From Actinocorallia herbida (GTDB taxonomy: Bacteria; Actinomycetota; Actinomycetes; Streptosporangiales; Streptosporangiaceae), in assembly GCF_003751225.1 (NCBI RefSeq), contig NZ_RJKE01000001.1:3596001-3660000 (forward strand): 64,000 nt of DNA. The letters run 5' to 3'. This document shows positions 34,736 to 48,923 of the stretch, one piece after another (position 1 is the stretch's first letter; each line of letters starts with the position of its first letter). A program made the position numbers and the translations under genes. A model generated the notes under the pieces. That model saw nothing but the letters and a program-made list of their open reading frames with translations, was not told the DNA's origin and ran no database searches.

Positions 34736-34754
34736 GCCGTCCGTCCCGTCAGAG
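34730..34754. terminator. Bidirectional hairpin between FAD/Rieske and ABC genes
   Basis: CTCTGA (34730-34735) pairs perfectly with TCAGAG (34749-34754). The two TGA stops form most of the stem; the loop is 13 nt. Confidence 0.5.
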
Positions 34755-35492
34755 GACGCCGTCGGAAAGGGCGCGGTGCAGGAAGGCGCGGGTCTCCGGC
34801 TGCTCGGGCGCGGTGAAGAGCCGGTCCGGGGGGCCCTGTTCCAGGAGGATGCCGTCGGAGAGGAAGCAGACGGTGTCGGCGATGGAGCGGGCGAAGGACA
34901 TCTCGTGGGTGGCGATGACCATGGTCATGCCCTGGTGCTTGAGGTCGCGGATGAGGGCGAGGACCTCGGTGACGAGGGCGGGGTCGAGGGCGGAGGTGAC
35001 CTCGTCCAGGAGGAGGAGGTCGGGGTGGCAGGCGAGGGCGCGGATGACGGCCACGCGCTGCTGCTGGCCGCCGGAGAGGCGGTCGGGGTAGTCGGCCGCC
35101 TTGTCGGCCAGGCCGAAGCGGGCCAAGAGGGCGCGGGCCTCTTCGACGGCCGCCTTGCGGGGCTGCTTGTGGACCTTGACGGGGGCGAGGGTGATGTTCT
35201 CCAGGACCGTCATGTGGGGGAACAGGTTGAAGGACTGGAAGACCATGCCGATCCTCCGGCGGACCGCGTCCTCGTCGGCGTTCACCGCGGTGATGTCGGT
35301 GCCGTCGAGGAGGATCACGCCGTCGTCGACGGTCTCCAGGAGGTTGACGCAGCGCAGGAGCGTCGACTTGCCCGAGCCGGACGCGCCGATCAGGCAGACG
35401 ACCTCGTGCGGCTCGACGGCGAGGTCGATGCCGCGCAGGACGGGATCGCCCCCGTAGCACTTCCACAGTCCGTCGATGGTGAGCAGGGGCAT
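34749..35492 (-). CDS. Polar amino acid ABC transporter ATPase (GlnQ-like)
   Basis: The protein is 247 aa. Walker A GASGSGKS lies near residues 34-41, the Q-loop follows, then the signature LSGGQQQR, Walker B LLLLDEVTSALDP and the H-loop ATHEM. The sequence GLWKCYGGDPVLRGIDL and MVFQSFNLFPHMTVLENI place it in the polar amino acid (His/Gln/Arg/cystine) class. It powers the neighbouring permease. The start overlaps the permease stop (TGATG). The last gene of a three-gene minus-strand operon: binding protein, permease, ATPase. Confidence 0.93.
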   Translation of the reverse strand: MPLLTIDGLWKCYGGDPVLRGIDLAVEPHEVVCLIGASGSGKSTLLRCVNLLETVDDGVILLDGTDITAVNADEDAVRRRIGMVFQSFNLFPHMTVLENITLAPVKVHKQPRKAAVEEARALLARFGLADKAADYPDRLSGGQQQRVAVIRALACHPDLLLLDEVTSALDPALVTEVLALIRDLKHQGMTMVIATHEMSFARSIADTVCFLSDGILLEQGPPDRLFTAPEQPETRAFLHRALSDGVL

Positions 35493-36349
35493 CAGCGGTC
35501 TCCGGGGGCGCGACGGCGCTCGGCGCGGGCGGCGAGCCAGTCGGTGAAGCGGGCGAGCGGCACGGTGAGCAGGACGAACAGTAGCGCCGCGGCGAGGTAG
35601 GGCGTGTAGTTGAAGGTCAGCGCCGAGTGGATCTGCGCCTGCCGCAGCGCCTCGATCACGCCGAGGACGGCGACGAGCGCGGTGTCCTTCTGGAGCGAGG
35701 CGAAGTCGTTGAGCAGCGGCGGTACCACGGTCCGGATGGCCTGCGGCAGCACCACGTACCGCAGCGCCTGCGGCCGGCTGAGCCCGAGCGAGCGCGCCGC
35801 GGCGAGCTGGCTCGGGTGGACCGACGCGATCCCGGCCCGGAACACCTCGGCCACGTAGGCGCCGTACGAGAGCACGAGCGCGATGACGCCGAGGGCCAGC
35901 GGACTGGAAGGCGCGCCGGACAGGTTGAGCGCCGGGACGCCGAAGCCGACGAGGTAGACCAGCAGGATCGTCGGGATGCCGCGGAACACGTCGGTGTAGG
36001 CGACGGCGAGGGCCCGGAGCGGGAAGAACGCGGGAGTCCGGACGCCCCGGGCCAGCGCCACCGCGAGCCCGACGACCAGGATGATCGGCTCGGCGATCAG
36101 AAAGATCTGGACGTTCACCCAGAAACCGCTCAGCACATCGCCGAACGAGCCGGCGAACTCCGACCAGGAGAAGAACGTCTCCCGGACCCGCGGCCACCCC
36201 GGCGAGGACACCAGGGCCCAGACGGCCAGGCCGAACACCCCGACGGTCGAGGCGGTGGCGACCGCGCCCGACCGCCGCGCGTCCCGTCGCCGGAGCCGTT
36301 CGCGCTCGCGCTGCCGGTCGCTCTTCGCCCAGGTCGTCGCCGTGCTCAC
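35492..36349 (-). CDS. Polar amino acid ABC transporter permease
   Basis: The protein is 285 aa from GTG 36349, overlapping the binding-protein stop by 4 bp (GTGA). After a highly charged N-terminal tail (RQRERERLRRRDARR) it has a first helix, a loop, and the HisM/GlnP-type core with 'PTILLVYLVGFGVPAL' and the EAA loop 'EVFRAGIASVHPSQLAAARS' that touches the ATPase. Five to six helices. There is one permease gene, so the transporter is probably a homodimer. The substrate is set by the binding protein. Confidence 0.92.
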   Translation of the reverse strand: MSTATTWAKSDRQRERERLRRRDARRSGAVATASTVGVFGLAVWALVSSPGWPRVRETFFSWSEFAGSFGDVLSGFWVNVQIFLIAEPIILVVGLAVALARGVRTPAFFPLRALAVAYTDVFRGIPTILLVYLVGFGVPALNLSGAPSSPLALGVIALVLSYGAYVAEVFRAGIASVHPSQLAAARSLGLSRPQALRYVVLPQAIRTVVPPLLNDFASLQKDTALVAVLGVIEALRQAQIHSALTFNYTPYLAAALLFVLLTVPLARFTDWLAARAERRRAPGDR

Positions 36350-37209
36350 CGGAGGACCGGTGCGCCCGCCGCCGCGGCGAGCCACTGGTCCTGGATCTTC
36401 GCGAGGTCGCCGGACGACCTGAGCTCGCCGAGCGCCTGGTCGAGGCAGCCGACCAGGGCGCTGCCCTTCTCCAGCACGAGCCCGAACCGCTCGGGCGTGC
36501 CGCCCGCTGCCGGGAGCTGGCCGATGATCTTGGAGCCCTCGATCTGGGCCGCGGTGACGTAGAACGCGGTCGGCAGGTCCACCACGATCGCGTCGACCTG
36601 CTTGTTCTTCAGCGCGTTCACCGCGTCGATCTGGTTGTTGAACACCTGCGGCTGCGTACCGGGCTTGATCTGGTCCTGGACCGCGGTCAGCGACGTCGTG
36701 CCGACCTGGACGCCGATCTTCGCGTCCTTGAGCGCCGCGACACCGGTGGCGGAGGCGAACTTCCCGTCCTCCAGCCCGACGACGGCCTGGGCGACGTCGT
36801 AGTACCCGGCGCTGAACGTCACGGCCTTGGCCCGCGCCTCGCTGATGGACACCTGATTGATGTCGAAGTCGAACGTCTTGGGGCCCGGCGCGTAGGAGGA
36901 GTCGAACCCGACCGTCTCCCACTTGACCTCGGTCTCGGCGAACCCGAGCTTCTCGGCGACCGCGTACGCGACGGCCGACTCGAACCCCTTGCCGTTCGTC
37001 GGGTCGTCGTCGGAGAACCACGGCTCGTACGCGGGCTTGTCGGTGCCGATGGTGAGCGTGCCCGCCGTCTTGAGCGGCAAGCTCTCCTTCGCACACGCGG
37101 CGGTGCCGGACGCGGACGGCGCCGCCGCGGTCGTGTCGTCGGCCGGGGCACAGGCCGCCGCGGCGACGAGCACCGCAAGAACGGGCAGAACGGTCAAACG
37201 ACGCAGCAA
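36346..37209 (-). CDS. Polar amino acid ABC transporter binding lipoprotein
   Basis: The protein is 287 aa from TTG 37209, chosen because GGAGG (37215-37219 on the reverse strand) is five bases upstream; GTG 37233 is an alternative. A lipoprotein signal reads LLRRLTVLPVLAVLVAAAAC with Cys at the lipobox. The mature protein is the SBP_bac_3 fold: GTLTIGTDKPAYEPWFS, 'GFESAVAYAVAEKLGF', 'FDFDINQVSISEARAKAV' and 'KNKQVDAIVVDLPTAFY'. It is most like amino acid (possibly cystine or glutamine) binders. TATTCCCATCA upstream resembles the sulfur box. First gene of the operon. Confidence 0.88.
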   Translation of the reverse strand: MLRRLTVLPVLAVLVAAAACAPADDTTAAAPSASGTAACAKESLPLKTAGTLTIGTDKPAYEPWFSDDDPTNGKGFESAVAYAVAEKLGFAETEVKWETVGFDSSYAPGPKTFDFDINQVSISEARAKAVTFSAGYYDVAQAVVGLEDGKFASATGVAALKDAKIGVQVGTTSLTAVQDQIKPGTQPQVFNNQIDAVNALKNKQVDAIVVDLPTAFYVTAAQIEGSKIIGQLPAAGGTPERFGLVLEKGSALVGCLDQALGELRSSGDLAKIQDQWLAAAAGAPVLR

Positions 37210-37232
37210 GGCAGCCTCCGGCCGATATTTCA

Positions 37233-37245
37233 CATCAGTTTGATG
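37233..37245 (-). promoter_or_regulatory. Inverted repeat before the amino-acid ABC operon
   Basis: CATCA-GTT-TGATG, a perfect 5-bp inverted repeat 24 bp upstream of the binding-protein start. It adjoins TATTCCCATCA on the minus strand, a partial match to the box shared by the leader peptide and metX. A regulator site is plausible. Confidence 0.4.
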
Positions 37246-37317
37246 GGAATAGTCCGATCTTAACCAAGCCCGGCCCTCCACACGGAGTGCGCCACACCGC
37301 CGCAGGCGACCAGTATG

Positions 37318-37365
37318 TAATTCCTACCTGTTTAGTTGACTTCTTTACGGTCGGGTGCTTATGCT
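37318..37365 (+). promoter_or_regulatory. Promoter with upstream box for the sulfur island
   Basis: TAATTCCTACC (37318-37328), 7 nt, TTGACT -35 (37336-37341), 18 nt, TATGCT -10 (37360-37365). Transcription should begin about 37372, exactly the GTG of the leader peptide. The same box and 7-nt spacing to TTGACA occur before metX. Confidence 0.65.
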
Positions 37366-37371
37366 CCATTT

Positions 37372-37449
37372 GTGCGAGTAAAGGAGTCCCTGACCAGCCG
37401 CTACCACGTGGACCTGTGCCGCGTGGCGAGCGCGCTGTGTCCAGGCTGA
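37372..37449 (+). CDS. Cysteine-type leader peptide (attenuator uORF)
   Basis: A 25-codon ORF, GTG 37372 to TGA 37447-37449, with the core YHVDLCRVASALCPG. The HVDLCR(V)A..C motif is the recurrent putative leader peptide found in actinobacteria before sulfur-assimilation and sulfonate-uptake genes. Its two Cys codons fit sensing of charged Cys-tRNA. It probably has no ribosome binding site because the promoter places the start at +1 (leaderless). It precedes the monooxygenase/ABC genes by 225 nt, which could fold alternatively. The peptide itself is likely only regulatory. Confidence 0.8.
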   Translation: MRVKESLTSRYHVDLCRVASALCPG

Positions 37450-37613
37450 GACGTCCGAATCTGAGACCGCGTATCCAAGACTCCGTCCGCCCATCGCCTC
37501 GCTGAGCCCCACGGACAAGCCCGCCGCACCCGCGCCCTCGCCGGGACGAGCGGTCCTCTTCAGCGTGCCCGCAACAGCCGGCGCCGCACCGCGCACGACG
37601 GCGCGGCACGACC

Positions 37614-37639
37614 GCCGGCCGACGCGGTCCCCGGCCGGC
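37614..37639 (+). promoter_or_regulatory. Candidate attenuator hairpin between leader and first gene
   Basis: GCCGGCCG (37614-37621), 10-nt loop, CGGCCGGC (37632-37639): a perfect 8-bp stem. It stands 34 bp before the monooxygenase start, followed by CTCTTCGCC. It could be the attenuator that ribosome stalling on the leader resolves. The other bases between 37450 and 37673 show no gene. Confidence 0.45.
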
Positions 37640-37673
37640 CTCTTCGCCGGAACCGCCCCCTGAAAGGCCCAGA

Positions 37674-39068
37674 ATGCCCCGGCCCGACCCCCTGATCCTC
37701 TCCGCGTTCACCATGTCGACCGCGTCGCACGGCAACGCGGGCCTCTGGCGGCATCCGGACGACCGGACCGCCCGCTACCCGGAGCTGTCCTACTGGGTCG
37801 ACCTCGCCCGCCGCCTCGACGCGGGCGGCTTCGACCTGCTGTTCATCGCCGACGCCGTCGGGCAGCTCGACGTGTACGGAGGCAGCGCCCGCGAGGCGCT
37901 GGCCCGCGCCGTTCAGACGCCGGTGACCGATCCGCTCCTGGCGGTCTCGGCGATGGCCGCCGCGACCGAGCACCTCGGCTTCGGCGTCACGGTCTCCACG
38001 ACCTACGAGTACCCGTACCTGCTGGCCCGCAAGTTCAGCACGCTCGATCATCTGACGGGCGGCCGGATCGGCTGGAACATCGTCACGTCCCTGCTGGACA
38101 GCGCGGCGCGCAACATCATCGCCCGCGACCGGCAGATCGGGCACGACGAGCGCTACGCCATCGCCCAGGAGTTCCTCGAGGTCGCCTTCAAGCTGTGGGA
38201 AGGCTCCTGGGAGGACGGCGCGGTGCTCCGCGACCCGGTGCGCGGAATCTTCACCGATCCGGACAAGGTGCACGGCATCGAGCACTCCGGACGGTACTTC
38301 TCGGTGCCCGGCGCGCACCTGGTCGAGCCGTCGCCGCAGCGCTCGCCGCTGCTGCTCCAGGCCGGGACCTCGACCGCGGGCCGCGAGTTCGCCGCCCGCA
38401 ACGCCGAACTCGTCTTCGTCGCCGATCCCCGTCCGGAGACGCTGCGCCGGAACATCGACGATGTCCGGCGCAGGGCCGTCGGCCACGGGCGCAGGCCGGA
38501 GCACCTCAAGTTCATCACCTCGGTGACCGTCGTCGTGGCCGAGACGGACCGGGCCGCCGCGGCCAAGGCCGCCGACCTGCGGCGGTTCCGCGACACCCGA
38601 GGCGGGCTCGTCCTGCTGTCGGCGCTGAGCGGCGTCGACTGGTCCGCGCACGATCTCGACCGGCCGATCGAGGAGTTCGAGACCGACGCCAGCCGCTCGG
38701 TGCTCGCCGCCGTCGCCGACCCGGCCGAGCGCAAGCGGCTGACCCTGCGCGACCACGTCGACGGACTCAGCGGATTCGGCGGCGAGGTCCTGGTGGGCGG
38801 CCCGGCGACCGTCGCCGACCAGCTCGAGGCGTACGCCGGGGCGACCGGCGTCGACGGCTTCAACTTCGTCTACCTCATCACCCCGGGCAGCTTCGACGAC
38901 CTCGCCGCGCACCTGATCCCGGAACTCGCGAAGCGCGGCCGCGTCCGCGAGCGCGGCACGCCCCGCCCGATCCGCGACGCGCTGTTCGGCACCGGCCCGA
39001 CCCTCCCCGCCGATCACCCCGGCACCGCTTTCCGCCGCGCCACCTCCTCCGCGCCCCGTCCGGAGTGA
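37674..39068 (+). CDS. NtaA/SnaA/DszA-type FMN-dependent monooxygenase
   Basis: The protein is 464 aa, the normal length for this family. It has LILSAFTMSTASHGNAGLW, DVYGGSA-type loops, 'TVSTTYEYPYLLARKFSTLD', 'GRIGWNIVTSLLDSAARN' and YAIAQEFLEVAFKLWEGSWE, all signature segments of the DszA/NtaA/DmoA class. With FMNH2 from a separate reductase and O2 it cleaves C-S or C-N bonds (sulfones, dimethyl sulfide, nitrilotriacetate are known substrates). First structural gene of the leader-controlled island, together with a related enzyme (44298-45722). No flavin reductase gene is in the island. Exact substrate unknown. Confidence 0.92.
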   Translation: MPRPDPLILSAFTMSTASHGNAGLWRHPDDRTARYPELSYWVDLARRLDAGGFDLLFIADAVGQLDVYGGSAREALARAVQTPVTDPLLAVSAMAAATEHLGFGVTVSTTYEYPYLLARKFSTLDHLTGGRIGWNIVTSLLDSAARNIIARDRQIGHDERYAIAQEFLEVAFKLWEGSWEDGAVLRDPVRGIFTDPDKVHGIEHSGRYFSVPGAHLVEPSPQRSPLLLQAGTSTAGREFAARNAELVFVADPRPETLRRNIDDVRRRAVGHGRRPEHLKFITSVTVVVAETDRAAAAKAADLRRFRDTRGGLVLLSALSGVDWSAHDLDRPIEEFETDASRSVLAAVADPAERKRLTLRDHVDGLSGFGGEVLVGGPATVADQLEAYAGATGVDGFNFVYLITPGSFDDLAAHLIPELAKRGRVRERGTPRPIRDALFGTGPTLPADHPGTAFRRATSSAPRPE

Positions 39069-39123: not shown

Positions 39124-40728
39124 ATGACCACGAGCAGACGCGCCTTCCTCGGCTGGACCGCCGGACTCGCCGCCTCGGCACTCGTCGCCGCCTGCGGCGG
39201 CGGCACGAGCGGCACCACGACCGCGGGATCGCAGCCCCGCGACGGCGGCACCCTCATCGTCGGCCAGTACCAGGAGGTGACGCAGTTCGACCCGAACCGC
39301 CAGTACTCCTGGGAGACGTGGCGGATCGACCGCAACATCTACGAGACCCTCGTGGACGAGGACCTGACCTCGCCCACGGGCGTGCCGAAGATCATCCCCA
39401 AGCTGGCGACGTCCTGGGAGGTGTCCGACGACGCCACGACCTACACCTTCAAGCTCCGCCAGGGTGTGAAGTTCTCCGACGGCACCCCGTTCGACGCCGA
39501 GGCGGTCCGGTTCAACGTGCGCCGGTTCACCGACCCGGAGTTCGAGTACTACGACAAGGTCAGCGCCGCCACCATGTCGCTGGTCTACGCCGACCTGGCG
39601 AAGTTCGAGGTCGTCGACGCGTTCACGGTGAGGTACACCTTCGAGCACCCGTTCCTCGACTTCCTCCGCCAGATCCCCAACAGCGGCAACGCGGCGTCGG
39701 GCATTTTCAGCCCGGAGGCGCTGAAGAAGAACGGCCAGGACGGCCTCGCCCTCGACCCGGTCGGCACCGGCCCGTTCACGTTCCAGGAGCGGGTCCGCGG
39801 CGACCACACCACGCTCGTGCGCAACCCGGACTACTGGGGTCCGCGTCCCCACCTGGACAAGGTGATCTTCAAGCCGATCGGCGACGACCAGAGCCGCGTC
39901 GCCGCCTTGCGCAGCGGCGAGGTCGACTTCATCAGCCGGGTCCCACCGGACTCCGTGCAGACGCTGGAGCAGGCCGGCTTCGACGTGCCGAAGAACGAGG
40001 GCGTCCCGCAGATCATCTACTACAAGTACAACTTCAAGAACACCTACCTCCAGGACAGGCGCGTCCGGCAGGCGATCATCCACGCGATCGACCGGGCGCA
40101 GCTCGCCGAGAAGATCTACAAGGGCCACGCCAAGGCGGCGACCTCGATCATCAACCAGGGAAACGAGGCGTACGACCCGGCGGCCGTCGACTACCCCTAC
40201 GACCCCGAGGCGGCGAAGAAGCTGATCGCCGAGGCCGGGTACGAGCCGGGCGAGATCAAGTTCACGATCCTCAGCGACACCACCGGCCAGCCCACCGCCG
40301 AGTTCATCCAGCAGGGCCTCAAGAACGTCGGCGTCGACGCCCAGATCGAGTCCTTCGAGTGGATCACCTTCGGGACGCGCGCGGCGAACCTCACCCCGAC
40401 CGACGGACTGATCCTCGGCGAATGGGGCTACGTCGCCCCGAACTGGGTCCAGATCGCGCACAACTACAACGTCGCGGTGCCCGGCGGAGACAAGTACTCC
40501 GACACCAGTGGCGACACCCTCAAGGCGATCGAGGCGGCCGCGCACAACAGCGACCCCGCCAAGGCGAAGGACCTGTGGCAGGAGGCCGCCCAGACCTGGG
40601 CGAAGGACGCGACGGTCATCCCGGTCCTGTCGTTCAACCGGTACTACGCGGTCTCCCCGCGCGTCGGCGGGTTCGTGTGGCCGCAGCAGGACCACTACGA
40701 CCTGTCCCGCGTGTGGGTGGCGGACTGA
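39124..40728 (+). CDS. Family-5 ABC substrate-binding lipoprotein
   Basis: The protein is 534 aa. The N-terminus has a twin-arginine-like SRRAFLGW and a lipobox LVAAC with Cys24, so it is exported and lipid-anchored outside the membrane. The mature part has the SBP_bac_5 pattern: GGTLIVGQYQEVTQFDPNRQ, 'LATSWEVSDDATTYTFKLRQ', GVKFSDGTPFDAEAVRFNVR, 'LVRNPDYWGPRPHLDKV'. These proteins bind oligopeptides, nickel chelates, glutathione or organosulfur compounds. Its place between two desulfurizing monooxygenases suggests an organosulfur ligand such as a sulfone, thioether or peptide. 55 bp after the first monooxygenase, 2 bp before the permease. Confidence 0.93.
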   Translation: MTTSRRAFLGWTAGLAASALVAACGGGTSGTTTAGSQPRDGGTLIVGQYQEVTQFDPNRQYSWETWRIDRNIYETLVDEDLTSPTGVPKIIPKLATSWEVSDDATTYTFKLRQGVKFSDGTPFDAEAVRFNVRRFTDPEFEYYDKVSAATMSLVYADLAKFEVVDAFTVRYTFEHPFLDFLRQIPNSGNAASGIFSPEALKKNGQDGLALDPVGTGPFTFQERVRGDHTTLVRNPDYWGPRPHLDKVIFKPIGDDQSRVAALRSGEVDFISRVPPDSVQTLEQAGFDVPKNEGVPQIIYYKYNFKNTYLQDRRVRQAIIHAIDRAQLAEKIYKGHAKAATSIINQGNEAYDPAAVDYPYDPEAAKKLIAEAGYEPGEIKFTILSDTTGQPTAEFIQQGLKNVGVDAQIESFEWITFGTRAANLTPTDGLILGEWGYVAPNWVQIAHNYNVAVPGGDKYSDTSGDTLKAIEAAAHNSDPAKAKDLWQEAAQTWAKDATVIPVLSFNRYYAVSPRVGGFVWPQQDHYDLSRVWVAD

Positions 40729-40730
40729 CC

Positions 40731-41687
40731 ATGGCACGTCGAATCCTGTGGCGGCTGACGGGCCTGGTCCCGATGCTCTTCATCATCAGCCTGCTGGTGT
40801 TCTTCATCTCCAAGGCCGGCCCCGCCGACCCGGTCAAGGGCGCGCTCAGCCAGAAGATGTCGCCGGAGCAGATCGAGCAGATCCGGCAGGCCTACGGCCT
40901 GGATCGGCCCGCCTGGCAGCAGTACGCGGGCTGGCTCGGGGACATGGTCACCGACGGCGGCGGCATCTCGCTCAGCGTGCGGAGCCCCGTGTCCGAACTC
41001 GTCTACCCGGCGTTCCGCAACACCCTCATCCTGGGGGCTGCCGCCACGCTGCTGACCGTCGTGCTCGGCGTGGCGATCGGGTTCGCCTCCGGCCTGCGGC
41101 ACGGCAGGCCGACCGACCGGATCGCCATGCTGTTCGTGCAGATCGGGAGCAACCTGCCGATCTACTGGTTCGGACTGATCATCATCTGGCTCACCGCGGT
41201 CCGGTGGCAGTGGCTGCCCGCGGGCGGCATGCACGACCTGCGCGGCGAGGGCGGGTTCGGCGACCTGCTGCTGCACCTGATCGCTCCGGCCTTCGCGGCG
41301 TCGCTGGTGTCGATGCTCATCATCGCCAGGTTCGTCCGGGCGGCGGTGATCGAGAGCGAGCAGTCGGACTACATCCGCACCTACCGCTCCCAGGGCTTCG
41401 GCCGGGCCGCGATCGTCGGCAGGCACATCGGCCGCAACGTGCTGCCGCCGATCGTCAACACCACGGGCCTCACGGTCGGCTCGGTGATCACCGGGGTGGT
41501 CTTCGTCGAGACGATCTTCTCCTGGCCGGGGATCGGGAGCGTCCTGCTCAACGCGATAGCCGGGTCGGACTACCCCGTCATCCAGTCGGGCATCCTGCTG
41601 GTCGCGGTGACGTTCGTGCTCGTCAACCTGGTCACCGACATCGCGCTGGACCTGCTGAACCCGCGGCTCAGGCACGGTGGCGCATGA
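40731..41687 (+). CDS. DppB/OppB-type ABC permease
   Basis: The protein is 318 aa with six helices. MARRILWRLTGLVPMLFIIS is the typical start and 'MSPEQIEQIRQAYGLDRPAW' the periplasmic loop; 'DYIRTYRSQGFGRAAIVGRH' is the EAA loop that docks on the ATPase. It imports the ligand of the binding protein at 39124. It begins 2 bp after that gene's stop and overlaps the next permease by 4 bp (ATGA). It is the intact counterpart of the permease remnant at 30811-31634. Confidence 0.94.
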   Translation: MARRILWRLTGLVPMLFIISLLVFFISKAGPADPVKGALSQKMSPEQIEQIRQAYGLDRPAWQQYAGWLGDMVTDGGGISLSVRSPVSELVYPAFRNTLILGAAATLLTVVLGVAIGFASGLRHGRPTDRIAMLFVQIGSNLPIYWFGLIIIWLTAVRWQWLPAGGMHDLRGEGGFGDLLLHLIAPAFAASLVSMLIIARFVRAAVIESEQSDYIRTYRSQGFGRAAIVGRHIGRNVLPPIVNTTGLTVGSVITGVVFVETIFSWPGIGSVLLNAIAGSDYPVIQSGILLVAVTFVLVNLVTDIALDLLNPRLRHGGA

Positions 41688-42559
41688 CGGCGATCCTCGC
41701 GGACGACCAGGTCCGCAAGACCCCGCCGCGGCTGCGCCGCTCGGCCCTCGCACGGTTCGCCCGCAACCGGGAGGCCGTGCTCGGGCTCTTGGTGCTCGCG
41801 CTCGTCGTGCTGGTCTCGGTGCTCGCCCCGTGGTTGGCCCCGCACGACCCGAACGCGGGCGACGCGGAGAACGTGCTCGCGCCGATCGGGTCGGCCGGGC
41901 ATCTGCTGGGGACCGACGACCAGGGCAGGGACGTGCTCAGCCGGGTCGTCCACGGCGGGCGGAGCGCCCTCATGGTGTCGACCGCCGCCGTGGCAGTCGC
42001 CCTGGTCGCGGGAACCGCGCTCGGGCTGTTCGCCGCCTTCGCGGGACGGCGGGTCTCCGGCGTGCTGATGCGGGTCGTCGACCTCATGTTCGCGTTCCCG
42101 GTGATCCTCGTGGCGCTCTCGCTCGCCGCGGTGCTCCGGCCGGGCTCGTGGGTGCTGATCGGCACGGTCGTCTTCGCCGCGCTGCCCTACGTCACCCGCA
42201 TCGTCTTCGCCGAGGCGAAGGTCGAGCGGGAGAAGGACTACGTCGAGGCGGCCCGCTCCCTCGGCGCGTCCGAGTCCGCCGTCGTGTGGACCGAGGTGCT
42301 GCCCAACCTCGTCTCCTCCGTGGTGATCTACGGGACCAGCCTCGTCGGGGTGAACATCGTGTTCACCGCGAGCCTCAGCGCGCTCGGCCTGGGCATCCAG
42401 CCGCCCGACCCGGACTGGGGCCGCATGATCTCCGAAGGCGCGAAGGTCCTGGTGACGGGCAACCCGGGCGTCGCCACCTTCCCCGCCGCCGCCATCCTGC
42501 TCGTCGCCCTGGCCTTCAACTGGCTCGGCGACGGACTGCGCGACGTCCTCAACCCGTGA
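41684..42559 (+). CDS. DppC/OppC-type ABC permease
   Basis: The protein is 291 aa. The N-terminal OppC_N segment reads RSALARFARNREAVLGLL, followed by GTDDQGRDVLSRVVHGGRSA, the canonical DppC motif. The EAA loop is EKDYVEAARSLGASESAVVW. It forms the second half of the channel with the DppB protein upstream. ATG 41684 overlaps the preceding stop by 4 bp, and the next gene may begin at a GTG overlapping its own stop. Five or six helices predicted. Confidence 0.94.
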   Translation: MTAILADDQVRKTPPRLRRSALARFARNREAVLGLLVLALVVLVSVLAPWLAPHDPNAGDAENVLAPIGSAGHLLGTDDQGRDVLSRVVHGGRSALMVSTAAVAVALVAGTALGLFAAFAGRRVSGVLMRVVDLMFAFPVILVALSLAAVLRPGSWVLIGTVVFAALPYVTRIVFAEAKVEREKDYVEAARSLGASESAVVWTEVLPNLVSSVVIYGTSLVGVNIVFTASLSALGLGIQPPDPDWGRMISEGAKVLVTGNPGVATFPAAAILLVALAFNWLGDGLRDVLNP

Positions 42560-42570
42560 AGGCGACAGAC

Positions 42571-44301
42571 ATGACGACACCCATCCTCAGCGTCGCCGGA
42601 CTCGGCGTCGACTTCACGCTGCCCGGCGCCGTGGTCCACGCGGTCCGGGGCGTCGACCTCGAACTCCGGCCCGGCGAGGTGCTGGCGCTCGTCGGCGAGT
42701 CCGGATCGGGCAAGAGCGTGACGGCCGCGGCGATCCTCGGCCTGCTGCCGCGCGAGGCGCGCGTGACGTCCGGGGCGATCCGTTTCCGCGGCGACGACCT
42801 GGTCGGCCTTCCCGAGCGGCGCCTCAACGTCCACCGGGGCTCCGGCATCGGGATGATCTTCCAGAATCCGGTCACCTCGCTCGATCCGTCGTTCACGATC
42901 GGCAGCCAGCTCGGCGACACCGCCCGGCTCCACCTCGGCGTCTCCCGCAGGGCGGCGACGGGCGTCGCGCGGGAGTGGCTGGAACGCGTGCGGATCGACG
43001 ACCCGGACCGCGTGCTCAAGGCGTATCCGCACGAGCTGAGCGGGGGCATGCGGCAGCGCGTCATGATCGCGCTCGCCGGGCTGTCGAAGCCCGCCGTGCT
43101 CATCGCCGACGAGCCGACCACCGCGCTCGACGCCACGGTGCAGAAGCAGATCCTCGACCTGCTGCTCGACCTGTCCGGCGAGACGGAGACCGCGGTCCTG
43201 CTCATCACGCATGACTTCGGGGTCGTCGCGCACACCAGCACGCGGGTCGCGGTGATGCGCGAGGGCGTCATCGTCGAGACGGGGGAGACCGACCGGGTGC
43301 TGCGCGCGCCGTCGCACGCCTACACGCGCACGCTGATCGACGCGGTGCCCGAGATCGGGCAGCGCGGGCTCCACCCGGGCGGGGCGCGCCGGCTGCTCGG
43401 CGGCGAGCCCCGCACGCAGCGCGTCCACCTGACGCAGCGGCGCGCGACGCCGCCGCCGGAGACCCCCGCGCGGAGGGAGGACCGGCCGATCCTCGAACTC
43501 CGCGACGTGTCCAAGGAGTTCGTGCTCGGCGGTCTCGGCACCGGCCGGCACAGGTCGGCGGTGCGGGCCGTCGACGGCGTGTCCTTGAGCCTGCGGCGCG
43601 GGGAGACCTTCGGCCTCATCGGCGAGTCCGGCTCGGGCAAGTCCACCCTCGCCCGGCTCGCGGGCGCGCTCATCCCGCTGACGGCCGGATCGGTCGTGTT
43701 CGACGGCGCCGACGTCGCCGCCGCGGACGCCGAGGGCAGGCGTGACCTGCGCCGCCGCTTCCAGTACGTGTTCCAGGACGCGGCCACCGCGCTCAACCCC
43801 CGCCTCAAGGTCGGCGACCAGATCGCCCGGCCGCTCCTGCGGCTCGGCAAGGCCGCGAACCGCAAGGCGGCCGAGGATCTGACGGGCAGGGCACTCGACC
43901 TGGTCGGCCTGAGCGCCGGATACGCCGACCGCTACCCCCGCGAGTTCTCCGGTGGCCAGCGCCAGCGGGTCGGCATCGCGCGGGCCATCGCCCTCGAACC
44001 CGACCTGCTGATCCTCGACGAGCCCACCTCCGCCCTCGACGTCTCGACCCAGGCGACCGTCCTGAACCTGCTCCTGGACCTCAAGGACGAACTCGACCTC
44101 ACCTACCTGTTCATCGGCCACAACCTCGCGATCATCGAGTTCGTCTGCGACCGCGTCGGCGTCATGCGCGGCGGCTCGCTGGTCGAGACGTTCCCGGCCG
44201 ACGACCTCTTCCATCCCGAACGCCATCCGGCCACCCGCACCCTGCTCGACGCGGTCCTGCCCGTCGGTGTCGGCGCGTTCGCAGCCAAGGAGACCTCATG
44301 A
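42571..44301 (+). CDS. Fused DppD-DppF double ABC ATPase
   Basis: The protein is 576 aa, with two complete ATPase domains in one chain. Domain 1: Walker A GESGSGKS (42-49), signature LSGGMRQR (about 156), Walker B IADEPTTALD. Domain 2: Walker A GESGSGKS (351-358), signature FSGGQRQR (about 459), Walker B ILDEPTSALD. Between them is a linker rich in Arg/Pro. It replaces the separate DppD and DppF subunits. The start is ATG 42571 (GAAGG upstream); an overlapping GTG at 42556 is in frame. It overlaps the next monooxygenase gene by 4 bp. Confidence 0.94.
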   Translation: MTTPILSVAGLGVDFTLPGAVVHAVRGVDLELRPGEVLALVGESGSGKSVTAAAILGLLPREARVTSGAIRFRGDDLVGLPERRLNVHRGSGIGMIFQNPVTSLDPSFTIGSQLGDTARLHLGVSRRAATGVAREWLERVRIDDPDRVLKAYPHELSGGMRQRVMIALAGLSKPAVLIADEPTTALDATVQKQILDLLLDLSGETETAVLLITHDFGVVAHTSTRVAVMREGVIVETGETDRVLRAPSHAYTRTLIDAVPEIGQRGLHPGGARRLLGGEPRTQRVHLTQRRATPPPETPARREDRPILELRDVSKEFVLGGLGTGRHRSAVRAVDGVSLSLRRGETFGLIGESGSGKSTLARLAGALIPLTAGSVVFDGADVAAADAEGRRDLRRRFQYVFQDAATALNPRLKVGDQIARPLLRLGKAANRKAAEDLTGRALDLVGLSAGYADRYPREFSGGQRQRVGIARAIALEPDLLILDEPTSALDVSTQATVLNLLLDLKDELDLTYLFIGHNLAIIEFVCDRVGVMRGGSLVETFPADDLFHPERHPATRTLLDAVLPVGVGAFAAKETS

Positions 44302-45722
44302 CCACCCCGCTGATCCTCAACGCCGTCGAGATGAACACCGCGGGCCACCTCGCGTTCGGCCTGTGGCGGCGGCACGCCGAGACGGCACGCGAGTACACCG
44401 ACGTCGAGTACTGGGTCGAGCTCGGCCGGGTGCTGGAGGGGAGCGGCTTCGACGCCCTGTTCCTCGCCGACGCGCTCGGCCAGCTCGACATCTACGAGCG
44501 CTCGGCCGACCGTTCGCTCATCGACGCCGTCCAGACCCCGCTGGACGACCCGCTGCTGGTCGTATCGGCGATCGCCGCGACCACCCGCACCCTGGGCGTC
44601 GGCGTCACGGTCTCGACGACCTACGAGCACCCGTACCTGCTCGCCCGGAAGTTCAGCACGCTCGACCACCTCACCCGGGGGCGGATCGGCTGGAACATCG
44701 TCACCTCCCAGCTCGACAGCGCCGCGCGCAACCTCGGCCTGGCGCGGCAGCTCCCGCACGACCAGCGCTACGAGCTCGGCCAGGAGTTCCTCGACGTCGT
44801 CTACAAGCTCTGGGAGGGCTCGTGGGACGACGGCGCGGTCGTCAAGGACCGGGCACGGGGGGTCTACGCCGATCCCGCGAAGGTGCACGCGATCGGCCAC
44901 GCGGGCGAGTACTTCTCCGTGCCGAGCGCGCATCTGTCCGAGCCGTCGGCCCAGCGCACGCCCGTCCTCTTCCAGGCGGGCTCCTCCCCTCGGGGACGCG
45001 CCTTCGCGGCCCGCAACGCCGAGGTGGTCTTCGTCGCGGGGGTCGAGCCGCCGGTGCTGCGCCGGAACATCGAGGACATCAGGCGGCTCGCGCGGCTGGA
45101 GGGCAGGGACCCCGGCGCGATTCGGTTCCTCGGGCTCGCGACCGTCATCGCGGACGCGACCGACGCCGCGGCCGAGGCCAAGCTGCGCGACTACCAGCGC
45201 TACCGGAGCGTCGAGGGCGCGATCGCGCACTTCTCGGCCATCACCGGGATCGACTGGGGGCAGTACGACCTGGACACGCCCCTGGAGTACCTGGAGACCG
45301 ACAGCAACCGGTCGATCCTCGCGAGCGTCACGAAGGACGCGCCGGACCGGTCGTGGACCCTCCGGAAGCTCTTCGGCTCCGCGGAGTCGGTCGGAGGCTA
45401 CGGGGCGCCCATCGTCGGGAGCGGCACGACCGTCGCCGACCGGCTGGAGGAGCTCGCCGCGGAATCGGGGCTGGACGGCTTCAACATCGCGGGCGCCGTC
45501 GCGATCGAGGACTACCGGGCGTTCGGCGAGCACGTGACCCCCGTCCTCGCCGAGCGCGGACGAGTCCGGGACAAGGTGCCGGGCCGGACGCTGCGCGAGT
45601 CCCTGTTCGGCGCGTCGCCGCTGCTCCCCGCCGACCATCCCGGAGCGCGCTACCGGGGCGCCTTCGCCGGGCTGCCTTCGGCCGCCCCCTCCCTCCTCAC
45701 CGCCGACAGCACGAAGGGCTGA
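44298..45722 (+). CDS. NtaA/SnaA/DszA-type FMN-dependent monooxygenase (second copy)
   Basis: The protein is 474 aa and clearly a paralog of the enzyme at 37674: LILNAVEMNTAGHLAFGLWR, 'TVSTTYEHPYLLARKFSTLD', 'GRIGWNIVTSQLDSAARNLG', 'YELGQEFLDVVYKLWEGSWD'. Both lie in the same operon, so they may act on successive intermediates or on different compounds. It uses externally supplied FMNH2. The ATG at 44298 overlaps the ATPase stop, so it is translationally coupled to transport. Substrate unknown; C-S bond cleavage is inferred from context. Confidence 0.93.
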   Translation: MTTPLILNAVEMNTAGHLAFGLWRRHAETAREYTDVEYWVELGRVLEGSGFDALFLADALGQLDIYERSADRSLIDAVQTPLDDPLLVVSAIAATTRTLGVGVTVSTTYEHPYLLARKFSTLDHLTRGRIGWNIVTSQLDSAARNLGLARQLPHDQRYELGQEFLDVVYKLWEGSWDDGAVVKDRARGVYADPAKVHAIGHAGEYFSVPSAHLSEPSAQRTPVLFQAGSSPRGRAFAARNAEVVFVAGVEPPVLRRNIEDIRRLARLEGRDPGAIRFLGLATVIADATDAAAEAKLRDYQRYRSVEGAIAHFSAITGIDWGQYDLDTPLEYLETDSNRSILASVTKDAPDRSWTLRKLFGSAESVGGYGAPIVGSGTTVADRLEELAAESGLDGFNIAGAVAIEDYRAFGEHVTPVLAERGRVRDKVPGRTLRESLFGASPLLPADHPGARYRGAFAGLPSAAPSLLTADSTKG

Positions 45723-45724
45723 CC

Positions 45725-46975
45725 ATGACCATCGTCGACGCCTCCGCCGACACGACCTACCTCCGCCCGGCCACGGCCACCGACGACGAGCTCGCCACCT
45801 TGTTCCAGCCGGTGTTCGACCGCGTCGCGGCGGGCAACGTCGCCCGTGAGAAGGAACGGATCCTCCCGTACGAACAGGTCGACTGGCTCAAGGAGGCGGG
45901 TTTCGGGCGGGTGCGGATCCCCGTCGAGTTCGGTGGCTTCGGCGCCTCGCTGGAGCAGACGTTCGCGCTGCTCGCCGCGCTGGCCGAGGCCGACCCGAAC
46001 GTCTCCCACATCTGGCGGAACCACCTCGCGTTCGTCGAGGACCGGCTGAACGCCGTGCCGTCGGAGACGAACGACCGGTGGATCCGGCGGTTCCTGGACG
46101 GCGAGTTCGTCGGCGGCGGGTGGACCGAGGCGAACAACGGGACCTTCGCCGACCTCAAGACCACGGTCCGCGCGGACGGCGACCGCTGGCTCGTCAGCGG
46201 CGCCAAGTTCTACGCCACGGGCAGCCTGTACGCCGACTGGCTGGACGTGCTCGGCAAGGGCGACGGCGACACCGTGCTGACCGCGCTCGTCCGGCGCACC
46301 GACCCGGGCGTCCGCCTCGTCGACGACTGGACGGGCTTCGGCCAGCGCGCGACCGCGAGCGGCACCGCCGAGTACACCGACGTCCCGGCCGAACACGGCG
46401 ACGTCTTCCCGGCCGGGGAGCGGTTCGCCTACCAGGGGCACTTCTACCAGACCGCCATGCTGTCGGTCCTGGTCGGCATCGCCCGCGCGGCCCAGCGCGA
46501 CGGGATCGCCGCGCTGAGGGCACGCGGTCGCAACTACCCGCAGGCGCTCGATCCGGTGCCCGCCGCCGACGCGCAGCTGCTCCAGGTCGTCGGGCAGGTG
46601 TCGGTGCACGTGTTCGCCGCCGAGGCCGCCCTCAGCAGATCCTCGCGCACCCTCGACCACGTCGCCGCGGCACACGCCGCGGGCGACGCCGACGCGCGCA
46701 AGGACCGCGTGCTGCGGGCCGAGGTCGCCACCGCCCAGGCCCAGCTCGCGATCATCGAGGCGGCACTCCAGGTGACCACCACGGTCTTCGACGCCCTCGG
46801 CGCCTCCGGAGTCTCCGAGAGGCTCCTGCTCGACCGGCACTGGCGCAACGCCCGCACCCTGGCCTCCCACAACCCCCGCGTCTACAAGGCCCGCATCCTC
46901 GGTGACTGGCTCGTCAACGCCACGGACCCGGTCCCCGACCTCGCCGCCTTCGGCCGCGGCGGCCAGGGAGACTGA
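45725..46975 (+). CDS. Acyl-CoA-dehydrogenase-fold monooxygenase (DszC/SfnB-like)
   Basis: The protein is 416 aa, starting 2 bp after the monooxygenase stop. It has the acyl-CoA dehydrogenase fold without its CoA catalytic Glu: 'GFGRVRIPVEFGGFGASLEQ', 'EADPNVSHIWRNHLAFVEDR', 'WTEANNGTFADLKTTVRADG', 'FYATGSLYADWLDVLGKGDG', 'TGFGQRATASGTAEYTDVPA'. This is the group-D flavoprotein monooxygenase type seen in dibenzothiophene desulfurization (DszC) and SfnB. It would oxidize a thioether or sulfide with FMNH2, giving a sulfone for the LLM enzymes. It is the last gene of the island, followed by a very strong hairpin. Confidence 0.92.
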   Translation: MTIVDASADTTYLRPATATDDELATLFQPVFDRVAAGNVAREKERILPYEQVDWLKEAGFGRVRIPVEFGGFGASLEQTFALLAALAEADPNVSHIWRNHLAFVEDRLNAVPSETNDRWIRRFLDGEFVGGGWTEANNGTFADLKTTVRADGDRWLVSGAKFYATGSLYADWLDVLGKGDGDTVLTALVRRTDPGVRLVDDWTGFGQRATASGTAEYTDVPAEHGDVFPAGERFAYQGHFYQTAMLSVLVGIARAAQRDGIAALRARGRNYPQALDPVPAADAQLLQVVGQVSVHVFAAEAALSRSSRTLDHVAAAHAAGDADARKDRVLRAEVATAQAQLAIIEAALQVTTTVFDALGASGVSERLLLDRHWRNARTLASHNPRVYKARILGDWLVNATDPVPDLAAFGRGGQGD

Positions 46976-47106: not shown

Positions 47107-47589
47107 CTACTGGAGACCGGTGCGGATCGAGGTGATGCGGTGGGTGTTGAAACCGAGCCAGTGCATGCGGCCGAGGTAGCGGGCGTGCTCGATTTTGAGG
47201 CAGAGGTCCATGATGACGGTGGTGCCGGAGTCTTCGGCCAGGTGGGCGGCGGCTTCGTTGATCACGCCGAACTGGCACCAGAGGGTGCCTGCGCCGATGG
47301 AGACGGTGTCCTCGGCGATGGCGGGGAGGGCGTCGGGGGCGCGGAAGACGTTGACGACGTCGACGGGGACGGGGATGTCGCGGAGGGTGGGGTAGGACTG
47401 CTCGCCCAGGATCTCTGGTTCGCGGGGGTTCACGGGGATGACGCGGTAGCCGTGGCGTTTGAGGTAGTAGCCGACGAAATGGCTGGCGCGGAGTTCGTTG
47501 CCGGAGAGGCCGACGACGGCGATGGTGCGGGCCGTGTGCAGGACGCGCTGGATGGTCTTCGGGTCCTGGTAGCGGGTCAGGTCGGTCAT
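47107..47589 (-). CDS. CoA-binding (Rossmann) protein, YccU-like
   Basis: The protein is 160 aa. It has the CoA-binding fold of PF13380: TIAVVGLSGNELRASHFVGY, then YYLKRHGYRVIPVNPREPEI, LGEQSYPTLRDIPVPVDVVN and a C-terminal MDLCLKIEHARYLG. The related YccU/YneT proteins are thought to be binding or regulatory partners. Its ATG overlaps the stop of metY by 4 bp (ATGA), giving a tight metX-metY-CoA-binding operon. A role in handling acetyl-CoA for MetX is only a guess. Confidence 0.85.
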   Translation of the reverse strand: MTDLTRYQDPKTIQRVLHTARTIAVVGLSGNELRASHFVGYYLKRHGYRVIPVNPREPEILGEQSYPTLRDIPVPVDVVNVFRAPDALPAIAEDTVSIGAGTLWCQFGVINEAAAHLAEDSGTTVIMDLCLKIEHARYLGRMHWLGFNTHRITSIRTGLQ

Positions 47590-48923
47590 CTCGGCTGCGC
47601 CTTCCCTTCGGCGGACGTGGCGGCGGCGTGGGCGAAGCCCTGTTCCAGGTCCCAGATCAGGTCGGCGACGGATTCGGTGCCGACGGAGAGGCGGACCGTG
47701 CCGGGCCCGACCCCTGCCGCGCGCAGTTCGGCGTCGCCGAGCTGGCGGTGGGTGGTGCTCGCGGGATGGATGATCAGGCTTTTGGCGTCGCCGACGTTGG
47801 CCAGGTGGGACCAGAGGGAGACGCCCCGGATGAGGTCCTGCCCGCCTTCCCGGCCGCCCGCGCAGTCGAAGGAGAACACCGCGCCAGCCCCGAGAGGCAG
47901 GTACTTGTCTACGAGCGGCCGGTACCTGCTCGAAGGCAGGCCCGGATGCGTCACGTTGGAGGCGAGCGGGTGCCCTTCGAGGAACTCCGCGACGGCCAGG
48001 GCGTTCGCCACGTGCCGGTCCATCCGCAGCGACAGCGTCTCCAGGCCCTGGAGGAACAGGAACGCGTTGAAGGGCGAGAGGGCCGCGCCGAGGTCGCGGA
48101 GGGTCTCGGCGCGGAGCTTCATGAGGTACCCGTAGGTACCGAACGTCTCGTGGAATTTCAGCCCGTGGTAGGCGGGCGACGGGTCGGCGATCACCGGGAA
48201 GCGGCCGTTGGACCAGTCGAACTCACCCGACTCCACCACGATGCCGCCGATGCTCGTCCCGTGCCCGCCGAGGAACTTGGTGGCGGAATGGACGACGATG
48301 TCCGCGCCCCACTCGATCGGACGACACAGGTAAGGCGTCGCGAACGTGTTGTCCACGATCAGGGGAACCCCGTGCTCGTGCGCCACCTCCGCGAGGGCCG
48401 CGACGTCCAGCACGTTCCCCGACGGGTTCCCGATCGTCTCCCCGTAGAACGCCTTGGTGTTCGGCCGGACCGCCTTGCGCCACGCGTCCGGGTCGTCGGG
48501 GTCGACCCACGTCAGCTCGACGCTCAGCTTGCGCAGCAGGTGCTTGAGCTGGTTCACCGTCCCGCCGTAGAGCGCCGAGGACGACACCACGTGGTCCCCG
48601 GGCTCCAGCAGCGTGAACAGCGCGGCGGCCTGGGCCGCGATCCCGCTGGCGAACGCGACGGCCCCGACCCCGCCTTCGAGGTTCGCCACCCGCTCCTCGA
48701 ACACCGCGACCGTCGGGTTCATGATGCGCGAGTAGGTGTTCCCGTACTCCTGGAGGTTGAAGTACGCGGCCGCCGACTCCGGATCCTCGAAGACGTAGCT
48801 CGTCGTCTGGAAGATCGGCACGGCGCGGGCGCCCGTGTTCGGGTCGGGCCGCTGCCCGGCGTGCAGCTGCCGCGTCTCGAACCCGAACTCGCGGGCTTCC
48901 TCGGCGCGGGGTGTGTCGGTCAT
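47586..48923 (-). CDS. metY: O-acetylhomoserine (thiol)-lyase, PLP-dependent
   Basis: The protein is 445 aa, of the Cys/Met metabolism PLP family, longer O-acetylhomoserine sulfhydrylase branch. It has 'GFETRQLHAGQRPDPNTGAR' and 'PIFQTTSYVFEDPESAAAYF', then GNTYSRIMNPTVAVFEERVA, and PLP Lys216 in HSATKFLGGHG. It joins O-acetylhomoserine with sulfide (or methanethiol) to make homocysteine or methionine. The partner MetX is immediately upstream and overlaps by 4 bp. The operon lies near the organosulfur island, so sulfite- or sulfide-derived sulfur can enter methionine directly. Confidence 0.95.
   Translation of the reverse strand: MTDTPRAEEAREFGFETRQLHAGQRPDPNTGARAVPIFQTTSYVFEDPESAAAYFNLQEYGNTYSRIMNPTVAVFEERVANLEGGVGAVAFASGIAAQAAALFTLLEPGDHVVSSSALYGGTVNQLKHLLRKLSVELTWVDPDDPDAWRKAVRPNTKAFYGETIGNPSGNVLDVAALAEVAHEHGVPLIVDNTFATPYLCRPIEWGADIVVHSATKFLGGHGTSIGGIVVESGEFDWSNGRFPVIADPSPAYHGLKFHETFGTYGYLMKLRAETLRDLGAALSPFNAFLFLQGLETLSLRMDRHVANALAVAEFLEGHPLASNVTHPGLPSSRYRPLVDKYLPLGAGAVFSFDCAGGREGGQDLIRGVSLWSHLANVGDAKSLIIHPASTTHRQLGDAELRAAGVGPGTVRLSVGTESVADLIWDLEQGFAHAAATSAEGKAQPR

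Follow-up and report, generated by a model that had tools for sequence, protein, structure and literature searches.

In the trp and tna systems of E. coli, a ribosome that stalls on a leader ORF sets the expression of the genes behind it, and tna uses Rho and the nascent chain. In actinobacteria, cysteine leaders without terminators were proposed in 2005, with possible Rho sites (PMC1262725), and in 2015 ribosome profiling lent support to leaderless Cys-rich leaders (PMC4633059). For the mycobacterial polycysteine leaders, relief of a translation block has been reported (Canestrari 2020, by the accounts in PMC9031893 and PMC13236596). Herein, we describe a putative leader peptide of NCBIfam family NF042934 that precedes a probable operon for organosulfur import and oxidation in Actinocorallia herbida. 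The window is the whole stretch of DNA that was analysed (64,000 nt), and the features of the locus are as follows.

37336..37341, + strand: -35 element TTGACT (sequence reading, consensus scan)
37360..37365, + strand: -10 element TATGCT, ending six bases 5' of GTG 37372
37372..37449, + strand: leader-peptide ORF VRVKESLTSRYHVDLCRVASALCPG, NF042934 (ORF reading and profile match; leaderless by sequence)
37417..37419, + strand: codon 16, the internal Cys codon (UGC), which family members may lack
37438..37440, + strand: codon 23, the terminal Cys codon (UGU), which does not vary in the family and is the proposed control codon
37450..37673, + strand: untranslated gap of 224 nt, with no intrinsic terminator and no excess structure
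37614..37639, + strand: perfect 8-bp inverted repeat (arms 37614-37621 and 37632-37639, loop of 10), at chance level
37662..37667, + strand: Shine-Dalgarno-like GAAAGG of the first operon gene (from sequence; six bases before ATG 37674)
37674..39068, + strand: NtaA/DmoA family FMN-dependent monooxygenase (TIGR03860, 490 bits, cut-off 279.7)
39124..40728, + strand: ABC substrate-binding protein, SBP_bac_5 (profile search)
40731..41687, + strand: ABC permease, OppB type (profile search)
41684..42559, + strand: ABC permease, OppC type (profile search)
42571..44301, + strand: fused double ABC ATPase (profile search)
44298..45722, + strand: second NtaA/DmoA family monooxygenase (TIGR03860, 480 bits)
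45725..46975, + strand: SfnB/DszC-like flavin oxidoreductase (TIGR04022, 265 bits, below the equivalog cut-off of 430.9)

The GTG at 37372 opens a frame of 25 codons encoding VRVKESLTSRYHVDLCRVASALCPG, as an earlier note on this DNA had read it. The peptide matched the NF042934 profile ('putative leader peptide', cis_reg_atten) at 37.5 bits (E = 1.2e-9), above the curated cut-off of 27 bits. A six-frame search of the 9.8-Mb genome with the same profile recovered it at 35.6 bits, and since the E-value of that search was 1.3e-7, the match is not due to chance. Against NF042933 (Ms5788A) the score was 28.9 bits, below the cut-off of 45, and the peptide is therefore a member of NF042934 and not of NF042933. 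As NF042934 describes, it is a short ORF before metabolic genes and, with the start of the message read from sequence, the first in its transcript. Three matches above the cut-off were found in the genome, the window peptide being the best, together with one more at 24.8 bits. The other three leaders lie 34, 80 and 135 nt before their next gene. The first (L004) precedes a gene that we take to encode a HEAT-repeat protein, the second (L005) precedes genes that we read as a DUF4395 protein and a rhodanese, and the third presumably precedes a gene for a sulfite/nitrite reductase-like protein. Within the same GTDB family, the leader family occurs in 58 of the 61 genomes searched.

The -35 and -10 elements are separated by 18 nt, and six bases lead from the latter to GTG 37372. 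In a consensus scan, this was the sole sigma-70-type site between 37100 and 37760, where 0.1 such sites are expected by chance (shuffles); the promoter TTGACT-N18-TATGCT had been proposed before, and its coordinates, read directly, are confirmed here. The placing of the GTG at +1 likewise holds as sequence spacing, the GTG sitting where the start is expected, and the spacing is found throughout the family. In 26 of 36 family leaders from the same GTDB family, a TANNNT hexamer ends 6-8 bases (mostly 7) 5' of the in-frame GTG or ATG, as against 0.55 +- 0.7 (maximum 3) in 200 dinucleotide shuffles; counts at other distances were 0-2, and those in other reading frames were 0. Given that this spacing is family-wide and matches that of mapped starts in Streptomyces lividans (-10 to start 6.3, range 4-9; PMC8079986), a leaderless start at the GTG appears to be a property of the family, and an accident at the window locus is unlikely.

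The seven genes 3' of the leader agree in their profile identities with the organosulfur import and oxidation operon claimed for this position, the organosulfur role being assigned at the family level. On this family-level evidence, the genes probably let the bacterium scavenge organic sulfur. The 5' flank is occupied by a divergent polar amino-acid/cystine-like ABC importer (window 34749-37212, - strand), and the 3' flank by a convergent O-acetylhomoserine/O-acetylserine sulfhydrylase with a CoA-binding protein (window 47107-48923, - strand). The region around the operon looks like a sulfur cluster. The stretch with the divergent amino-acid ABC operon also holds, at window 37233-37259, a small palindrome, CATCAgttTGATG, followed by GGGAATAGTCCGATC. 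Some leaders elsewhere have similar GGAATA motifs upstream, and the palindrome may serve a sulfur regulator as its operator.

In other actinobacteria, leaders stand at the start of, or within, monooxygenase/SfnB/ABC operons whose genes are arranged in another order. They were found at or near such related, reordered operons in Actinomadura montaniterrae (L008), Dactylosporangium fulvum (L037) and Thermomonospora echinospora (L047), and at four further loci (L149, L151, L152 and L157); at the last three of these, 82-232 nt separate the leader from the gene that opens a monooxygenase/ABC operon. The T. echinospora locus has two leaders, and the one with TTGACT-N18-TACGCT-N6-GTG, which resembles the window promoter, encodes VLPTMRLTCRGHVDFCRVASALCPR. 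Among 251 genomes of the same GTDB family, no more than 27 have a close relative of the first operon gene (E up to 1e-100). A motif scan of 79 loci gave no convincing leader directly before a homologue of this gene, and some relatives have the leader several genes upstream. The closest relatives of the first gene stand without a leader directly before them, which counts against the explanation preferred below. Taken together, the family membership, the family-wide leaderless layout and the recurrent sulfur-gene context support, at the level of sequence, the earlier reading of a leaderless cysteine-type leader at an organosulfur operon. The statement that the motif is known from actinobacterial leaders at sulfur genes agrees with NF042934, which already names this group, a family of probable cysteine sensors.

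Other genes follow leaders as well. At six loci (L122, L130, L132, L134, L137 and L144), TATAGT or TACAGT stands 6-8 nt before the GTG, and the next gene starts VTKQVQQLDRVIIRFAGDSGDGMQLTGDRF; we read its product as the alpha subunit of a 2-oxoacid:acceptor oxidoreductase, which one would not expect behind a cysteine leader. At L126, L128, L129, L143, L125 and L139, the leaders LHIDLCRLAGSLCR and RRHVDLCRVASQAC precede membrane proteins, presumably cation:dicarboxylate/cystine symporters from their appearance, and several of these loci carry GGAATA-like motifs near the promoter.

The earlier note had placed control in the Cys codons. The cysteine type of the leader stands, but the codons are unequal, since only the terminal one is conserved, always as UGU, and the internal UGC is optional. 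Profile column 19, the terminal Cys, was TGT in 36/36 family leaders, and their internal Cys codons were TGC in 21/22. The share of TGT among Cys codons in genes was 8-12%, with 7/91 in the downstream genes, 36/313 in the called genes of the locus set and 6/78 in the window. A scan of organosulfur loci gave further leaders, some beside unrelated genes, for which the control position was taken as the last Cys, and this codon was TGT in 11/11. When 297 genomes of the class were searched with a pattern blind to TGT and TGC, about 200 matches were obtained in 125 genomes, and the terminal Cys was UGU in about 198 of the 200. Two matches carried TGC, L199 and L200, the latter doubtful as a leader; the only convincing leader in which UGC takes the place of the terminal UGU is L199 (G479:C169:11114), with MSATEVFLVVRRHVDLRRVSSALCRAT. 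The column-19 codon was also TGT in 25/25 mycobacterial Ms5788A-type polycysteine leaders, in which the other positions of the Cys runs had TGT 73 times vs TGC 58 times and column 12 was TGC in 24 of the 25. The leaders compared span many genera and families and share ancestry, so that p-values overstate their independence.

The HVDLxR core is constrained as a peptide, given that its codons vary over the 36 leaders (Asp GAC 24 and GAT 12; Arg13 CGC, CGG and CGT; Val GTC and GTG). The synonymous bases flanking the terminal UGU vary, which speaks against a longer nucleotide motif that includes it, and the constraint is therefore taken to act on the codon. The conserved Arg and the conserved Asp precede this codon by six and nine codons, respectively, and nearly all members have it shortly before the stop codon. 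Two tRNA-Cys genes were found in the genome with one anticodon-loop pattern, which could miss others. Since both have the anticodon GCA, a single anticodon decodes UGU as well as UGC, the difference being third-base wobble, as established decoding rules have it. Our literature search found no statement of an invariant UGU in such leaders for actinobacteria, with the proviso that Canestrari 2020 could contain one; as far as the literature searched shows, the invariant UGU has not been described before for this group.

We consider the following account likely. The message would start at GTG 37372, and ribosomes would begin on its 5' end and translate the 25-codon peptide. With plentiful Cys-tRNA-Cys, the ribosome would reach the stop codon, and expression of the seven organosulfur genes would stay low. 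With scarce Cys-tRNA-Cys, the ribosome would pause while its A site holds the terminal UGU (codon 23), which would raise operon expression; the conserved HVDLxR nascent chain, at a fixed distance in the exit tunnel, would perhaps also hold the ribosome. We infer the stalling, cysteine as the signal and the sign of the response. The nascent chain probably helps the stall at UGU, and by analogy the fixed spacing Asp10-Arg13-Cys19 would put conserved side chains in the upper exit tunnel, resembling arrest peptides. Counting against this account, the Cys codons of the window leader number just two and are not adjacent, in contrast to the polycysteine leaders that have been tested; the gap after it has no conserved or excess RNA structure, and the modelled stall does not open the Shine-Dalgarno site.

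How a waiting ribosome could be turned into expression was weighed against the properties of the gap, which extends 224 nt to ATG 37674, in line with the 225 nt given before. The perfect 8-bp hairpin reported in the gap exists, and the inverted repeat is real; its role as a candidate attenuator is not supported. An equally good inverted repeat occurred in 180 of 2000 shuffles of the gap (9%), no U-run follows the hairpin, a terminator search of the leader found none, and the fold of the whole leader compared with shuffles gave z = -0.08, that is, no excess structure. The hairpin was thus rejected as a terminator or attenuator. An intrinsic terminator is unlikely as the output step, attenuation through this hairpin is very improbable, and the leader lacks the intrinsic terminator of the trp type. 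No Rfam families were found near the leader. Translation attenuation, in which structure would hide the ribosome-binding site of the first gene until a stalled leader ribosome rearranged it, is possible, although we lean slightly against it. It is reported for mycobacterial polycysteine leaders (PMC13236596, PMC9031893), and the HEAT-repeat leader L004 of the same genome has a summed ORF-Shine-Dalgarno pairing of 8.6, with 10.0 in its relative L087. The corresponding value at the window locus is 0.04, and over 37 leaders, read per leader, the pairing is not clearly above synonymous-codon controls, with no evident excess across the family; base-pairing between the leader ORF and the Shine-Dalgarno site that follows was accordingly discarded. 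In the folding model, a ribosome masked on UGU left the accessibility of the Shine-Dalgarno site unchanged, though a thermodynamic model by itself may miss such an opening. At L004 (G000:C1:880332, ORF from 1492) and L087 (G002:C1:872791), the leader stands 34-40 nt before the HEAT-repeat gene, and at the Shine-Dalgarno site that follows, CGGCCGACC...AGGAG is a possible pairing partner for the 5' part of the leader (CUCCU...GGUCGGCCG). To our knowledge, the HEAT protein has no link to sulfur.

The gap is C-rich (47% C and 29% G in 37450-37660), and together with its length and the lack of an intrinsic terminator this would suit Rho, which could load on the gap after the leader stop codon and end transcription, unless a ribosome at UGU, shortly before the stop codon, shielded the entry site in the manner of the E. 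coli tna operon. Seliverstov et al. 2005 (PMC1262725) suggested such attenuation for cys leaders of actinobacteria, and the nearness of the control codon to the stop codon in nearly all members is consistent with it. However, some leader gaps are only 34-40 nt long, and the base composition is not specific. The C-over-G skew of leader gaps exceeds that of upstream intergenic controls (+0.17 vs +0.01, p about 1e-5), but the gaps of 44 leaders (+0.18) do not differ significantly from same-strand gene gaps (+0.11, p = 0.15), so that C-richness is not specific to leaders and the skew was dropped as a Rho signature. We regard Rho attenuation as rather unlikely. The peptide might instead act in trans as a small protein, its reading frame being no sensor. 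The HVDLxR core, kept at the amino-acid level with varying codons, would fit this; the synonymous constraint to UGU at one position, the recurrence as first ORF before sulfur genes and the very short, variable ends argue against it, and we give it hardly any credence.

Returning to the stall at the terminal UGU, we tentatively put forward a wider reading, to which we assign somewhat less than even confidence. Across Actinomycetia, one position-specific UGU, and not Cys codons generally, may be the sensor; the UGU wobble and the nascent chain would set the stall, and the mycobacterial polycysteine tracts would be elaborations around the same UGU. If this is true, a synonymous change of UGU to UGC should cripple the switch. 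The invariant UGU thereby gives a loosely described 'putative leader peptide' family a precise and cheap test, a single synonymous base change, and suggests that a leader peptide may sense an amino acid by the decoding kinetics of a single codon set in a defined nascent chain and not by codon runs. The window leader adds a further class of target operon to an already known kind of leader. The reach of cysteine-sensing leaders would extend from cysteine biosynthesis to monooxygenases and ABC importers that scavenge organic sulfur, and this would tie sulfur starvation to desulfurization pathways of applied interest.

Compared with E. coli trp and tna, the window leader has no terminator, concerns a different amino acid and would be initiated leaderless. 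The cysS uORFC-8-2 leaders of Rhodobacterales are likewise Cys-codon leaders with proposed ribosome-mediated attenuation, but they have tandem Cys codons in which UGC dominates, carry an intrinsic terminator and belong to another lineage (PMC8632094). The leaders of Seliverstov et al. 2005 share with the window a short ORF, Cys codons near the stop and the lack of a terminator; unlike it, they contain Cys-codon runs and precede cys or cbs operons (PMC1262725). The Ms5788A-type polycysteine leaders (NF042933; Shell 2015, Canestrari 2020) are leaderless, as the spacing predicts for the window leader, and likewise have an invariant UGU at column 19; their core (RRAVD-CR) recurs in the rhodanese-locus leader L005 of the window genome. 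The window peptide differs from them in scoring below their cut-off and in having two separate Cys codons (16 and 23 only) with no Cys run, in place of the contiguous Cys codons of Canestrari 2020. The closest relation is to NF042934, whose cut-off the peptide exceeds, whose HVDLxR...C core it shares and whose members are found before sulfur genes; to these targets, organosulfur monooxygenase/ABC operons are added here.
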